Below are positions 27,846-34,049 of a DNA stretch of 64,000 bases, piece by piece. Within the stretch, counting starts at the first letter, position 1. Every line of letters begins with the position of its first letter. The position numbers and the translations under genes were made by a program. Under the pieces are notes generated by a model. That model saw nothing but the letters and a program-made list of their open reading frames with translations, was not told where the DNA came from and did not search any database. The DNA is from Arthrobacter gandavensis (GTDB lineage: Bacteria; Actinomycetota; Actinomycetes; Actinomycetales; Micrococcaceae). The stretch lies in contig NZ_JADKYW010000006.1 in the NCBI RefSeq assembly GCF_015355785.1, positions 640,936 through 704,935 on the forward strand, given 5' to 3'.

Positions 27846-28940
27846 ATGGCTCTGCGAGGCAAGACCCTGCCCAAACCCTCCCTGGCGGCTGTATCCAACC
27901 GGCTCACCGGAATGCTGCGGTACACCCGGTTCCAGCTGGCCGTTAAGGCGGCCGTAGCAGTCGGCATCGCCTGGAGCCTGGCCCCACTGGTGCCCGGGGT
28001 CGCCGCTGAGTATCCCTACTACGCCCCCCTTGGCGCGCTGGTCAGCATGTACCCCACGGTGGCCGGCACGGCGCGGGCCGGAATACAGACCCTGATCGGT
28101 CTCGTCAGCGGAATCGGCCTGGCCCTGATCGCCCTCTTCTTCGGCGGGCCCACGGTGTGGACCATCTCCCTGATTGTTGGCCTTGGCGTGCTCCTCGCCG
28201 GCATCCCCCGGCTCGGCGCAGGACGGGACTACCTGCCGGTCGCCGCTCTCTTTGTGCTGGTCCTGGGCGGAGACAACGCGGACGGTTACTCCTACGGCTA
28301 CGCCGTGCAGATGCTCGTGGGGGTGCTGGTGGGACTGACCGTCAACGCAGTGCTGTATCCGCCGCTGCACCTCAACGGAGCCGTGGACGGGCTGGCCTCG
28401 CTTCGGCTGACCCTCGCCCGTCAGCTGCGGGAGATGGGCATGGCAGTTGGCGAGTCCTGGCCCCCGGAACACGAAGACTGGTCCAATCGCCGGACTGAGC
28501 TCATCTCCTTCAGCCGCGAAGTCCGCGAAGCGGTGCAGCTGGCCGATTCAAGCCGTCACGGCAACCTGCGGCGGCGGCGCCACCAGCGTGATCTCAATGC
28601 CGACTTCCGTGCACTGCGCGCCATGGAACGTGTCACGCTCTATGTGGAGGACATGACGGAGGTCCTCGCCACCGCGATCTGGAGCTCACCGGAGGAGACA
28701 CCGGTTCCGGAAGCGGTTGCCGATGCACTTGAACGCGCCATGCTGGCCTCCGCAGAGGCCGTAGAAACCTGGGATGCGGATACCGAGGAATACACCGAGG
28801 CCGTCAACGCCGTCCAGGAGCTGGTTACCACTATGAACGGCCAGGCATCGCCGGATTCACCTATTGATGCCACGGCGTCGCTGGCGATGAGCCTTCGGCG
28901 GATTATGCGCACCATCCGCACCGAGGAAGACCAGCCCTAG
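27846..28940 (+). CDS. FUSC-family (aromatic acid exporter-like) membrane protein
   Basis: A 364-residue protein. The N-terminal half has about six closely packed hydrophobic segments (e.g. LIGLVSGIGLALIALFF, TISLIVGLGVLLAGIP, MLVGVLVGLTVNAVLYP). The C-terminal ~190 residues are a charged helical cytoplasmic domain (RRRRHQRDLNADFRALRAM). This matches the FUSC/ArAE family, which exports aromatic or other organic acids. The substrate is not deducible. It is convergent with the App1 gene, the stops nearly touching (overlap of 4 bp). Confidence 0.85.
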   Translation: MALRGKTLPKPSLAAVSNRLTGMLRYTRFQLAVKAAVAVGIAWSLAPLVPGVAAEYPYYAPLGALVSMYPTVAGTARAGIQTLIGLVSGIGLALIALFFGGPTVWTISLIVGLGVLLAGIPRLGAGRDYLPVAALFVLVLGGDNADGYSYGYAVQMLVGVLVGLTVNAVLYPPLHLNGAVDGLASLRLTLARQLREMGMAVGESWPPEHEDWSNRRTELISFSREVREAVQLADSSRHGNLRRRRHQRDLNADFRALRAMERVTLYVEDMTEVLATAIWSSPEETPVPEAVADALERAMLASAEAVETWDADTEEYTEAVNAVQELVTTMNGQASPDSPIDATASLAMSLRRIMRTIRTEEDQP

Positions 28941-30025
28941 CCGGCGTCGGGCAGCAGCCCCTGTTCCATCAGCTGGCGGGACATGCCCGCGCCGTCCGGA
29001 GCGTAGATCCATGGGATATCCCGGGGAGGTGCCCCCGGGCCGGAGGACCGTCCGCCGGCCAGGACGGCCTCGCTCGGGGAAAGCTGCCGGATGGCCACGG
29101 CCCGGACATTCTGCGGATGGGTTCGGCTGAACTCCGCGTAGATCGCCTCGTCGTGCTGGCCGTTATCTCCGATGAGCAACCAGCTGATGTCAGGGAATTC
29201 CCTGGCCAGGCGCTCAAGCTGGGTGCGCTTATGCTCCGGCCCGCTGCGGAACCAGCGGTCACGGGTGGGACCCCAGTCAGTGAGCAGCAGCGGTCCGGCC
29301 GGGTACAGGTTGCGGGTGATGAAGCGTGTCAGGGTCGCAGCAACGTTCCATGCCCCTGTGGAGAGGTAGAAGACCGGCCCGCCTTCGTTCTCCCGCGTCA
29401 GCCGGTCCATCAGCACTGCCATGCCCGGAGTTGGAGTCCTGGCATGCTCGTCAAGCACAAAGGTGTTCCATGCTGCCAGCAGGGGACGCGGCAGTGCCGT
29501 GACCATGATCGTGTCGTCAATATCGGATATGACACCGGTCTTGGCCGCTGGATCCACGATGTACACCGGCGAAGCAACCGGCACGGCGTCGGGCTCTGCC
29601 TCCGGACGCAGCGTGATGCTCTGCCAGCCCGGAGCAAGGGATGCAGGCAGCACCGTGTCGATGACTCCTCCGCGGTCCGCGGTGACCAGGTGTTTTTCCT
29701 CGCCGATCCCGACGCAGACCACGGCGTCGTTGACCGGCGGGCTGATGAAGTTGCGCCAGCCGCGCACCCCGTCCCGCAGTGCCTGGGCGGAACCGGTGCG
29801 GGCCGAGAGCTTGCCTGGCTTGGCCAGCACCACTCGTCCCAGCACCCGCACCCAGGACGTCGAGCCGTAACCCGTGAAGGACAGGACCGTCTGCACTCCC
29901 CCGCGTTTGCGGGCAGCGTTCATCCGGGTGGAGTGGATCCGGTCCTCGAGCCGGGCACCAATGTGCATTGCCTGGTCCTTGGTGCGTTTGACGGCGGGCA
30001 GTCCGGGTACAGAAGTTGAAGGCAT
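28937..30025 (-). CDS. App1-type phosphatase (DUF2183, HAD-like catalytic motif)
   Basis: A 362-residue protein of the phosphatidate phosphatase App1 family. The HAD-type nucleophile motif DIDDTIMVT lies near residue 167. Downstream motifs are GPVFYLSTGAWNV and LLIGDNGQHDEAIYAEF, which supply the Thr/Ser, Lys and acidic metal-binding residues. The N-terminal ~150 residues are the beta-rich part common in the bacterial members. It probably dephosphorylates a lipid or small phosphate ester in the cytoplasm. ATG 30025 gives MPSTSVPGLPAVKRT. Confidence 0.88.
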   Translation of the reverse strand: MPSTSVPGLPAVKRTKDQAMHIGARLEDRIHSTRMNAARKRGGVQTVLSFTGYGSTSWVRVLGRVVLAKPGKLSARTGSAQALRDGVRGWRNFISPPVNDAVVCVGIGEEKHLVTADRGGVIDTVLPASLAPGWQSITLRPEAEPDAVPVASPVYIVDPAAKTGVISDIDDTIMVTALPRPLLAAWNTFVLDEHARTPTPGMAVLMDRLTRENEGGPVFYLSTGAWNVAATLTRFITRNLYPAGPLLLTDWGPTRDRWFRSGPEHKRTQLERLAREFPDISWLLIGDNGQHDEAIYAEFSRTHPQNVRAVAIRQLSPSEAVLAGGRSSGPGAPPRDIPWIYAPDGAGMSRQLMEQGLLPDAG

Positions 30026-30160
30026 GCCCCCAGTCTCGCAGACAGTCAGTGCACTTTATATCCGGCCTTGGCCGGGGATGACGCAAAAGGACGGCCCCGG
30101 TCCTGAACTGCTCCCCGAAAGTTGGACTGAGAAATCAGTTCACTCTCGGGGAGCAGTTCT

Positions 30161-30649
30161 ATGCACAGCAGCAGTTCATTGTCGGAAGAGCAGCGTGAGG
30201 CAGCGGTAGCCTTATTTGAGCTGGGTTGGGGGTACAAGTCGGTAGCCATGAAGCTTGGCGTGAGCAAGAAGGCTGCAAACGGGTTATACGACCGCTGGAG
30301 AGTGCGCGGAGGGACAACACTATTGGCCAAGCCAACCAAGCGTAAGTTTTCGTTTGAGTTCAAGCTCATGGTTGTTCAGCGCTTTCTTGCAGGAGAAACG
30401 AAGGTCGCCTTGGCTCAGGAGTTCCAGCTGTCCTCACCCAATCTCATCAAGGCGTGGGTCAGTAAGTACCGCAGCGAAGGCGAAGAGGGCTTGCGTCCTA
30501 AACCGAAGGGCCGTCCGAAAGCGCTGACCGAAGCTCCTGCGCGGCCGGTGTCGGAGCTTGAACGGTTGCGTAGGGAGAACGAGCGGCTGCGGGCAGAAGT
30601 AGCCTTCCTGGGAAAAGTTCAGGCCTTGAGGGGAAAGGAACGGCGCTAA
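30161..30649 (+). CDS. IS3-family transposase, OrfA
   Basis: A 162-residue DNA-binding part of the transposase. It has two helix-turn-helix units (LGWGYKSVAMKLGVSKKAAN, then FLAGETKVALAQEFQLSS), as in the IS150 group, and a leucine-zipper-like helix (ELERLRRENERLRAEVAFL) for dimerisation. GGGGAG lies 7 nt before ATG 30161. OrfB is read in the -1 frame; a slip at AAAAG (30613-30617) would fuse both. Confidence 0.93.
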   Translation: MHSSSSLSEEQREAAVALFELGWGYKSVAMKLGVSKKAANGLYDRWRVRGGTTLLAKPTKRKFSFEFKLMVVQRFLAGETKVALAQEFQLSSPNLIKAWVSKYRSEGEEGLRPKPKGRPKALTEAPARPVSELERLRRENERLRAEVAFLGKVQALRGKERR

Positions 30650-31500
30650 AAGTCCGCGCTGTCATCGCCCTCAAGGCCGAGCACCGTCTGGACTTGCTCC
30701 TTGACGTGGCCGGCTTGGCTCGGTCAACGTTTTTCTACCACCAAGCCCGCTTACAGAACCCGGACCCACAAGCTGAGCTCAAAGCCGCAGTCCGGGAAAT
30801 CTTCGAGAAGAACCATGCCCGGTACGGTCACCGCCGCATCCACACGGTACTGGTCAAGCAGGGTTGGACCGTGGCGAAAAAGACCGTCTTGAAGCTGATG
30901 CGCTCTCTTCGGCTGGTCTGTAAAGTCCGGCGCAGGAAACGCTACGCCTCTTACCGCGGCGAGCAAGGTGTAGTGGCGCCGAACCTGTTGAACCGGGAAT
31001 TCGAAGCTGCTGCACCAAACCAGAAATGGGTTACGGACGTGACTGAGTTCAGTGTCGGTGACCGCAAGCTCTATCTTTCACCGGTGATGGATCTCTACGA
31101 CCGGCAGGTAGTGTCTTTTTCGGTCGGGGACTCCCCGAACCTGGAGCTCACGAATTCGTGCCTGCGCGATGCCCTGGCCAGCCTAAGGTCTGGTGAAGCG
31201 CCGATGGTTCATTCGGATCAGGGCTTCCAGTATCAGCACCGGTCCTGGCGTGCTCTGCTCAATGATGCCGGCGCAGTCCAGTCAATGTCGCGCAAAGGTA
31301 ACTGCTACGACAACGCGGTGATGGAGAACTTCTTCGGTCATCTGAAGGAAGAGCTGTTCCACCGGGTCCGGTTCCTGAACACCGATGCCCTGGCAGCGCA
31401 GCTCCGCGAGTACATCGGCTGGTACAACAATGAACGCATCTCGACAAAGCTCGAGGGCCTGAGCCCGGTGCAATACCGTGCTCAGGCCCTCGCGGCCTAG
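30616..31500 (+). CDS. IS3-family transposase, OrfB (DDE integrase domain, made by -1 frameshift)
   Basis: The frame is open from the presumed slip site; the first internal start codon is TTG 30694. It has the HTH_21-like region (ARYGHRRIHTVLVKQGW) and an rve integrase core with D-D-E residues in WVTDVTEF, MVHSDQGFQY and NAVMENFFGHLKEEL. The end YNNERISTKLEGLSPVQYR is typical. All catalytic residues are present. Expression as an OrfAB fusion by -1 frameshifting is the family rule. Confidence 0.93.
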   Translation, partial: SSGLEGKGTALKVRAVIALKAEHRLDLLLDVAGLARSTFFYHQARLQNPDPQAELKAAVREIFEKNHARYGHRRIHTVLVKQGWTVAKKTVLKLMRSLRLVCKVRRRKRYASYRGEQGVVAPNLLNREFEAAAPNQKWVTDVTEFSVGDRKLYLSPVMDLYDRQVVSFSVGDSPNLELTNSCLRDALASLRSGEAPMVHSDQGFQYQHRSWRALLNDAGAVQSMSRKGNCYDNAVMENFFGHLKEELFHRVRFLNTDALAAQLREYIGWYNNERISTKLEGLSPVQYRAQALAA

Positions 31501-31541
31501 GATCTTATTTGGCCAGTCCAACTTTCGGGGAGCAGTTCATC

Positions 31542-31556
31542 CCGGAGCCGTCCTTT
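31542..31556 (-). terminator. Right half of an intrinsic terminator split by the IS
   Basis: The arm CCGGAGCCGTCCTTT (31542-31556) pairs with AAAGGACGGCCCCGG (30086-30100) on the other side of the IS; removing the IS and one TCC restores a 14-bp stem with one mismatch, a 4-nt loop and a TTTT run for the minus strand. It was probably the terminator of the desaturase gene ending at 31586. Confidence 0.75.
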
Positions 31557-31585: not shown

Positions 31586-32656
31586 CTAGCGGTACTGGGA
31601 CCGCACCGGGCAGTCGAACGGATCGCGGGCGGAGAGGCCCACGCGGTTCAGGTAGCGGACCACGATGGCGTAGGACTGCGTGAGCGTTGCCTCCGTGTAC
31701 GGAATCTTGTGCTTGGCGCAGTGCTCTTTCACGATTTCCGAAGCGCGGGCCAGGTGCGGGCGCGGCATGCTCGGGAACAGATGGTGCTCAACCTGGTAGT
31801 TCAGTCCGCCCATGAACGTGTTCATGCCGCGGCCGGTGATGTTGCGCGAGGTCAGGACCTGGCGGCTGAGGAAATCGACCTTGGAGTCACGCGGGATCAG
31901 CGGCATGCCCTTGTGGTTCGGCGCGAAGGACGCGCCCATGTAGACACCGAAAACGCCGAGCTGGACGCCCAGGAAGGCAAATGCCATGCCCACTGGCAGG
32001 AAGAAGAAGACCGCAGCCACGTAGAGGCCCAGGCGCAGGAAGACCATGGTGATTTCCGTGTAGCGTCCCTTGACCTTGTTCCTGGAGAACAGGTGCCGGA
32101 TGGACGTGGCGTGCAGGTTGATGCCTTCAAGCAGCAGCAGCGGGAAGAACAGCCAGCCCTGGCGGCGGGTCAGCCAGGCCATCAAACCCTTCCGGGTCTC
32201 GGCCTGCTCAACCTGGAACGAGATGGCGTCCATCTCGATGTCCGGGTCCTTACCCACGGTGTTGGGGTTGGCATGGTGCCGGGTGTGCTTGTTCATCCAC
32301 CACTGGTAGCTGATGCCCACGACGGCGTTGGCGAGGAATCGTCCGGCGCGGTCGTTCGCGGGGCCGGATTCGAAGACCTGGCGGTGGGAGGCTTCATGGG
32401 AAATAAAGGCAAGCTGCGTGAACAGGATGCCCAGGGCTGCCGCAATCAGCAGCTGGAACCAGCTCTCCCCGATCAGGAAGAAGCCGGTGCCGGCAGCGAT
32501 GAGGCCGGCACAGAGGAACACGAAGGTCGTGATGTAGAAGGCACGGCGCCGCTTGAGCAGGCCTTCGTCGCGGATAATCTTCAGCAGCGCTGAGTAGCTG
32601 CTGGCGACAGCGTTCTCGCGGTTCCTGGTAGTACGTGGTTGTGCAGCAATGCTCAT
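31586..32656 (-). CDS. Membrane fatty-acid desaturase
   Basis: A 356-residue desaturase with the three histidine boxes of the membrane di-iron family: HEASHRQ, HTRHHANP and QVEHHLFPSMPRPHL. Hydrophobic segments lie between them (FLCAGLIAAGTGFFLIG, VAAVFFFLPVGMAFAFLG). It introduces double bonds into acyl chains of membrane lipids or acyl-CoA, often in response to cold. ATG 32656 (MSIAAQPR) is chosen; upstream in-frame sequence is not family-like. Its terminator is interrupted by the IS3 element. Confidence 0.93.
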   Translation of the reverse strand: MSIAAQPRTTRNRENAVASSYSALLKIIRDEGLLKRRRAFYITTFVFLCAGLIAAGTGFFLIGESWFQLLIAAALGILFTQLAFISHEASHRQVFESGPANDRAGRFLANAVVGISYQWWMNKHTRHHANPNTVGKDPDIEMDAISFQVEQAETRKGLMAWLTRRQGWLFFPLLLLEGINLHATSIRHLFSRNKVKGRYTEITMVFLRLGLYVAAVFFFLPVGMAFAFLGVQLGVFGVYMGASFAPNHKGMPLIPRDSKVDFLSRQVLTSRNITGRGMNTFMGGLNYQVEHHLFPSMPRPHLARASEIVKEHCAKHKIPYTEATLTQSYAIVVRYLNRVGLSARDPFDCPVRSQYR

Positions 32657-32882
32657 AAGCGCCTCTGAAGTCTCTTCGACTTCCCAGCCGCGAAGTAGAG
32701 CAAATGCCCTATGGATGTGGCAAGCGTAACCCGGAATACTGGTAGTTCGCTGTGACCGCTGCTTAACAATCAGCTTCCGGCCTTTGCCGGACCGTTCGGG
32801 CGCGCACCGTTGACCGCGGACTGACCAGGCGGCAAGCATGGCTTCCACGCACCGCCGCGCCAGTCACAAACCGGGAGCTGCA

Positions 32883-33221
32883 ATGATCCGAGTCCTTTCC
32901 ATTGACGGCGGCGGAATCCGCGGAATCCGCGGAATCCTCCTTGAATCCAACGCGGTCTCGCAGCTGGCTCACCCCGCCCAGCTCACTGCCATGGAACCGG
33001 TCATCGAGTCCCTGTACGGAGCACCCGGCCGCCTCACCCGGAACCTGCTGGGCCTTGCCCTGGGCGAGCGATACGTTCGTCTGCATACTCCGCTGCTTCC
33101 CGGCGTCGGCCACGCACTGGATGATGCCGGCCCCGCGAACATCGCCGGCCTGCTCCGAACCGCCAAGGCACTCGCGGCGACTGGCCGGCTTCGGAGCCTC
33201 GCGGAGCAGCTGGGCGGCTGA
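32883..33221 (+). pseudogene. Patatin-like phospholipase remnant with internal deletion
   Basis: The 112-residue frame begins with the patatin N-terminus, RVLSIDGGGIRGI, the oxyanion-hole glycine loop. It then passes directly into a C-terminal tail (VIESLYGAPGRLTRNLLGLA, then RYVRLHTPLLPG). The GxSxG serine and the DGG/A aspartate motif, normally 40 to 200 residues downstream, are absent, and the length is a third of usual (~300 aa). Three tandem copies of GCGGAATCC (32911-32937) sit at the glycine loop, near the presumed junction. The reading frame is intact but the lipase should be dead. Confidence 0.75.
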
Positions 33222-33263: not shown

Positions 33264-34049
33264 ATGAGCACGAACAACCGGGAACCGGCACGTGAGTTCA
33301 GCGTCCAGGACGTGGCGCGCCAGGCCGGCATCACCAGCCGGACCCTTCGCCACTATGACGCGATTGGCCTCCTGCCCCCTGCGCGGACCGGCAGCAACGG
33401 CCACCGCTACTACGGACGGGATTCGTTGGTACGGCTGCAGCGCATCCTGCTGCTGCGCGAACTCGGTCTGGGACTGCCCGGGATCGCGGGCATCCTGGAG
33501 CGCCGCGAAGACCCCGCTGAGGAGCTGCGGAACCACCTGTCGTGGCTGGAAAAGGAACAGGACCGGCTGCTGCGGCAGGCCGCGTCGGTCCGGAGAACCA
33601 TCGCAGCACTGGAGAAAGGACTGCAGATCATGCCCGAGGAAACCTTCGACGGATTCGACCACACCCGGTACAGGGACGAGGTTGAAAGCAGATGGGGGAG
33701 CCAGGCTTACGCGCGCTCCGACGAATGGTGGAGGAACATGGACGACGGCGAGCGCACAGCCTGGCAGGAGCAAACCCAGGAGCTGGGACGCGCTTGGTCA
33801 GAGGCCGCTGAACAGGGAGCTGATCCCGCCGGCCCCGTGGCACACGGACTCGCGGAACGGCATATCGCGTGGCTGAAGAGCGTCCCGGGAGCTCCCACGG
33901 GTGCGGGCGAGCTGGATGGCTACGTCCGTTCCCTGGCGGAAATGTATGTGGCTGATCCGCGGTTCGCCGCGAACTACGGCGGGGCCGGTGGCGCGGCTTT
34001 CGTCCGGTCTGCCCTCCTTGCCTATTTGGGCAGCGAACCTCAGCCCTAA
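33264..34049 (+). CDS. MerR-family regulator with TipAS-like effector domain
   Basis: A 261-residue regulator. The N-terminal MerR winged helix is seen in FSVQDVARQAGITSRTLRHY and NGHRYYGRDSLVRLQRILLL. A coiled helix follows (LEKEQDRLLRQAASVRRT). The C-terminal ~140 residues start EETFDGFDHTRYRDEVESRW, the TipAS domain that binds drug-like ligands covalently or tightly in Streptomyces TipA. The promoter with its internal palindrome (33233-33247) implies autoregulation. No separate transporter is in the same transcript. Confidence 0.93.
   Translation: MSTNNREPAREFSVQDVARQAGITSRTLRHYDAIGLLPPARTGSNGHRYYGRDSLVRLQRILLLRELGLGLPGIAGILERREDPAEELRNHLSWLEKEQDRLLRQAASVRRTIAALEKGLQIMPEETFDGFDHTRYRDEVESRWGSQAYARSDEWWRNMDDGERTAWQEQTQELGRAWSEAAEQGADPAGPVAHGLAERHIAWLKSVPGAPTGAGELDGYVRSLAEMYVADPRFAANYGGAGGAAFVRSALLAYLGSEPQP

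Follow-up and report, generated by a model that had tools for sequence, protein, structure and literature searches.

The insertion sequence (IS) in the window analysed here, a 64,000-nucleotide stretch of the Arthrobacter gandavensis genome, lies precisely at the middle of a gene-end hairpin, as do nearly all of its copies and those of many relatives; in the choice of site, palindromic shape seems to matter more than sequence. We consider it very probable that the transposase of this IS150-group element directs insertion to the symmetry axis of strong palindromes, mostly terminator-like hairpins at the 3' ends of genes, with selection and the element's own end hairpins as further parts of the same account. 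Most often, transposons are guided to their targets by a short sequence or through a partner protein, or show hardly any choice. With its single, unrelated terminators as targets, a DDE element such as this one offers a clean system for studying how a transposase reads DNA shape, and each copy of the IS marks a natural gene-end hairpin.

The element spans positions 30104-31539 (+ strand, 1436 bp) and is bounded by perfect 26-bp terminal inverted repeats (TIRs; 30104-30129 and 31514-31539), outside which a target site duplication (TSD), TCC, is present in two copies (30101-30103 and 31540-31542). Both features are those of the IS3 family: the TIRs read TGAACT...AGTTCA, with 5'-TG and CA-3' termini, and the TSD falls within the range of 3-5 bp. 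The + strand encodes orfA (30161-30649), a helix-turn-helix (HTH) protein of 162 amino acids matching Pfam HTH_28 and HTH_Tnp_1, and, in a 308-codon open frame (30574-31500), the integrase-type transposase OrfB with its Pfam rve domain and DD(35)E signature. A predicted -1 frameshift at the heptamer G_GGA_AAA (30610-30616, in frame with orfA), which is followed by a strong predicted hairpin (arms 30622-30632 and 30668-30678), would yield an OrfAB fusion of 447 amino acids. The transposase is intact, with the catalytic triad spacing D-35-E, and its score of 323.8 bits against NCBIfam NF033516 (cut-off 160; E=1.6e-96) assigns it to the IS3 family. Over its full length, OrfB is 47-50% identical to the proteins of IS150, ISKpn1 and ISKpn8, figures that may be compared to 29-36% for other IS3 elements. 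An OrfB tree, in which IS150 and ISKpn1 pair, agrees with placement in the IS150 group; since the named references in it were labelled by default and left unscored, and two rows were badly extracted, no claim of a single origin is drawn from it. The genome contains four copies of the IS, 100% identical at the DNA level, indicating that it has moved recently; a phylum-wide search found no additional close copies. Judged from its sequence, the window element is an intact, recently multiplied member of the IS150 group of the IS3 family.

The hairpin interrupted by the window copy belongs to a fatty acid desaturase gene (31586-32656, - strand, the start at 32656 being picked by eye; Pfam FA_desaturase, E=8.7e-42), downstream of which, on the same strand, lies a gene for an APP1-type phosphatase (28937-30025; Pfam APP1_cat, E=2e-49). 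The two hairpin arms, AAAGGACGGCCCCGG (30086-30100) and CCGGAGCCGTCCTTT (31542-31556), are 15 nt each and 93% complementary, with one C.A mismatch; base 31542 is shared between the right arm and the right copy of the TSD. Removal of the IS and one TCC in silico restores, around 30 nt past the desaturase stop codon, a terminator-like hairpin, AAAGGACGGCCCCGGTCCCGGAGCCGTCCTTT, which folds at -22.4 kcal/mol as the + strand and more stably, at -25.9 kcal/mol, as the strand of the desaturase. Its loop is the 4-nt sequence GTCC, inside which the TCC lies. The initial annotation, which had placed an IS3-family element in the loop of a terminator with the duplicated TCC inside that loop, is borne out on both points. 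On the other side of the desaturase, positions 32838-33221 hold an ORF of 127 amino acids that contains MIRVLSIDGGGIRGI, reminiscent of a patatin-type N-terminus, and seems to be disrupted after this point; it adjoins a MerR-like regulator at 33264-34049.

All four of the identical genome copies are found at the centre of a terminator-like hairpin, and the four stems are mutually unrelated. The TSDs are TCC, TGG, AAC and CCT, and the hairpins holding the other three copies begin GACCCGGCC, GGGTGCCCCTGCC and GGCCGGCAGCC. The hairpins at these four sites lie 28-45 nt from stop codons and have A-run/T-run ends, the U tracts being short; each site has the sequence make-up of an intrinsic terminator, namely a GC-rich 3'-end hairpin with a U tract. 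Empty orthologous sites, in relatives lacking the IS, carry an uninterrupted hairpin at all four loci. On the desaturase side it is whole in four genomes (G010, in which the desaturase ortholog is 99% identical, G004, G014 and G001) and, for the remaining three loci, in 16 further site-spanning alignments. Since relatives without the IS carry them whole, the hairpins pre-date the insertions. Stems at the empty sites vary between species with their pairing kept, as would be expected of conserved terminators, and each target corresponds to a separate orthologous gene end rather than to a member of one repeat family (PU/REP). Hairpin loops also hold five of five copies in another genome, G026, and those of the two most closely related species that carry the IS. 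Two expectations of the initial annotation, that hairpins would flank other copies of the IS and that an empty site in a relative would carry one, are therefore realised: the first at 3/3 further copies in this genome, in both of these closest species and in most relatives, the second at every one of the four loci.

Relatives were gathered through OrfB from species representatives and from the genus and family. Of 132 copies delimited, 87 were kept, these combining a TSD of 3 bp or more with a minimum of 18/26 TIR matches and spanning 48-100% OrfB identity; L195, a chance IS150-group match, was left out. Palindromes were scored as the number of pairs over 12 stem positions, a pass being at least 9/12 with a centre no more than 5 nt from that of the TSD. 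By this measure 62 of the 87 copies (71%) pass. In two nulls the pass rate is 6.7% (right flanks exchanged among copies) and 4.3% (offset positions within these loci). At 11 or more of the 12 pairs the corresponding figures are 52%, 0.2% and 0.5%. At 85% OrfB identity and above, nine of nine copies pass, and the modal offset between palindrome centre and TSD centre is 0. The 25 copies without a palindrome by this score include most copies of the G301 elements and several single sites in other genomes, the G301 elements being less similar (around 62% identity), the hairpin fraction being lower in some groups; some of the non-passing copies lie 7-9 nt off a hairpin axis (for example L023, L024 and L186).

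Background palindromes were counted in two 400-kb samples, which contain one strong palindrome every 5.1-5.6 kb (79 in 400 kb of this genome). They are so sparse that a random site in this genome would qualify with a probability of about 0.2%, and with 4/4 of its own copies qualifying, a chance palindrome can be rejected. As a control, 28 multi-copy IS insertions were delimited in related genomes. Members of other IS3 groups or of IS256 make up 27 of these, and none of the 27 passes the palindrome score; the sole passing insertion, L365, bears the TGAACT...AGTTCA ends of the present clade. The preference for palindrome centres extends across a whole clade, the targets being of unrelated sequence. 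In two other genomes, copies L022-L024 and L153, L182 and L183 are found in repeated REP-like palindromes (beginning CGCTCTATCAC and TGGAGGTGATGACACC), some of them several nt off the axis.

The position of the targets relative to genes was assessed for 42 hairpin sites in high-GC genomes, with approximate gene calls based on ORFs whose third-position GC is high. Only 5% of these sites fall in predicted coding sequence, where 75% of random positions lie. A stop codon is found no more than 60 nt upstream of 81% of the sites, but of just 8% of random positions. Targets away from gene ends are also seen: L034 lies between divergent genes and L193 is 467 nt from a stop. Convergent gene pairs flank 28 of the 36 sites with known neighbours; among background palindromes the share is 34/103 (p = 4e-6). 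Confining the background to stems no shorter than 16 bp gives 28/36 to 25/53 (p = 0.0045): stems between convergent genes are longer, which explains part of the convergent bias and weakens a preference for convergent genes as a mechanism. Every insertion splits a terminator, and so is predicted to alter the transcripts of the neighbouring, often convergent genes, except where hairpins of the element itself act as substitutes.

The contribution of structure and sequence can be compared at 59 hairpin sites. Their stem positions pair in 85-98% of cases, compared with 30-43% expected from composition, and sequence information amounts to 3.2 bits in total over 12 positions. We infer that the dyad, or a cruciform formed from it, is the main targeting signal. 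The IS circle or the transposase complex would be guided by the dyad, most likely as an extruded cruciform or through a bent, loop-prone centre, and the sequence preference of the transposase would be weak. Purifying selection would remove insertions in coding sequence and enrich those between convergent genes.

A transposase dimer might instead read a loose palindromic motif in the duplex, as a repressor reads its operator and with no need for a cruciform; duplex reading of a dyad has been proposed for REP-targeting IS (PMC1525189). OrfA does carry HTH domains, and the targets of close relatives (at least 70% identity) contain 5.9 bits, compared with 3.5 +/- 0.6 for an equal number of strong palindromes drawn at random from the hosts, which points to a modest preference of sequence or composition and to recognition that is not purely structural. 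However, the information is far below that of a 12-bp operator, loops of 3-8 nt are tolerated at the hairpin targets, and the element's own four sites have unrelated stems, so that we regard duplex reading as possible but unlikely. Less probable again, and in our view rather improbable, is guidance of the transposase by RNA polymerase or by the terminator RNA hairpin and not by DNA shape. The 81% of hairpin sites located just downstream of a stop codon would be in keeping with such a coupling to termination, but the targets off gene ends (L034 and L193), and the relatives found in repeated REP-like palindromes (L024 and L153, L182 and L183), argue against it. Survivor bias, with insertion occurring anywhere intergenic, copies persisting near gene ends and hairpins as bystanders, could account for the rarity of hairpin sites in coding sequence (5% versus 75%) and for the enrichment of convergent gaps, but it cannot put the duplication within 1-2 nt of the palindrome axis, and other IS groups in related genomes, exposed to the same kind of selection, gave 0/27; as the sole explanation it is rejected on these grounds, and we consider it highly improbable. 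Finally, the idea that the palindromic flanks, which do make inverted repeats outside the TIRs, are part of the mobile element or are produced by transposition is practically untenable, since the flank sequence differs at every copy and the hairpins are present in relatives without the IS.

Returning to the choice of targets by palindromic shape, the element that splits these hairpins itself carries one near each end. At the left, the hairpin (30105-30159, + strand) forms between the TIR and an inverted copy further inside, which contains the Shine-Dalgarno sequence of orfA, GGGGAG. Many relatives add a T run to this long hairpin (for example GGGGAGCAGTTTTTG, or GGGGTGCTTTTTTT in ISEnfa3), so that the left end looks like a terminator. 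Comparison of 29 distinct left ends reveals compensatory changes, affecting both sides, in 10 of 26 pairs (39 cells against 10.5 when shuffled). The right-end hairpin is an inverted-repeat pair within the 3' end of orfB (31452-31492), 48-88 bp inside the right end of the IS. It keeps compensatory changes despite the coding constraint of orfB, with both-side changes in 7 of 17 pairs (26 cells against 7.5 when shuffled). Transcription that reaches the IS from genes whose terminators it has broken is probably kept out, or in part terminated, by the end hairpins, which would thereby shield transposase expression from it and stand in for the broken terminator. The initial annotation had raised the prospect of desaturase transcripts running antisense through the transposase; such readthrough may be limited, because the transcript would meet the conserved right-end hairpin. 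A more general proposition, which we offer tentatively and with some doubt, is that a widespread IS3 clade selects its targets by DNA secondary structure (a cruciform or hairpin axis) and mostly irrespective of sequence, that gene-end hairpins serve it as safe havens, and that it has evolved hairpins at both of its ends that replace the destroyed terminator and block translation of the transposase from incoming transcripts.

Insertion into palindromic units is described for IS1397 and ISKpn1 in PMC1525189, which cites Clement 1999 and Wilde 2001 and 2003. The connection to ISKpn1, suggested in the initial annotation, is substantiated by an OrfB similarity of 49.5% over the full length, a similar element length and a TSD of 3-4 bp; IS1397 is likened to the present element from its published description rather than its sequence. 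Among the copies inspected, one of ISKpn1 (L200) lies in a hairpin loop, ISKpn1-like elements of Citrobacter and Rahnella lie in terminator-like hairpins (11 and 9 pairs, respectively), and an ISKpn1-like copy in E. coli lies within the hairpin after ugd. Two more ISKpn1 copies, in apparent palindromic units, score only 7, since those stems are bulged. The palindrome-centre insertion typical of IS1397 and ISKpn1 is thus found here too, but the reported targets of those elements belong to one repeat family (PU/REP) per host, whereas the present targets are single unrelated terminator-like hairpins. ISPsy8 of Pseudomonas syringae, compared by description, is likewise an IS3-family element with a 3-bp TSD, and in 5/5 copies the insertion lies on the symmetry axis of the hairpin predicted for a REP (PMC1525189); it differs in occupying a fixed position in one repeat sequence. 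The REP-targeting elements IS621, ISPpu9 and ISPpu10, which also insert in extragenic palindromes (PMC1525189), are of the IS110 family and have a transposase of another family. The window element is an IS150-group member working like ISKpn1 and ISPsy8, and is filed as a variant in target range because its targets are unrelated single hairpins, mostly at gene ends. A search of the open-access full-text literature turned up no account of terminator targeting by IS3 elements.

IS150 and ISKpn8 resemble the window element in belonging to the IS150 group by OrfB (around 47% identity) and in their length of 1443 bp, but are without the long left-end hairpin. None of the IS150 and ISKpn8 sites examined is at a strong palindrome, the best for IS150 having 8/12 pairs, near ibsA. 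That ibsA site is a bulged terminator-like hairpin, and IS150 in E. coli repeatedly adjoins type I toxin genes, namely hokA, hokE, mokC, plasmid hok and ibsA (L202 and L225-L232).
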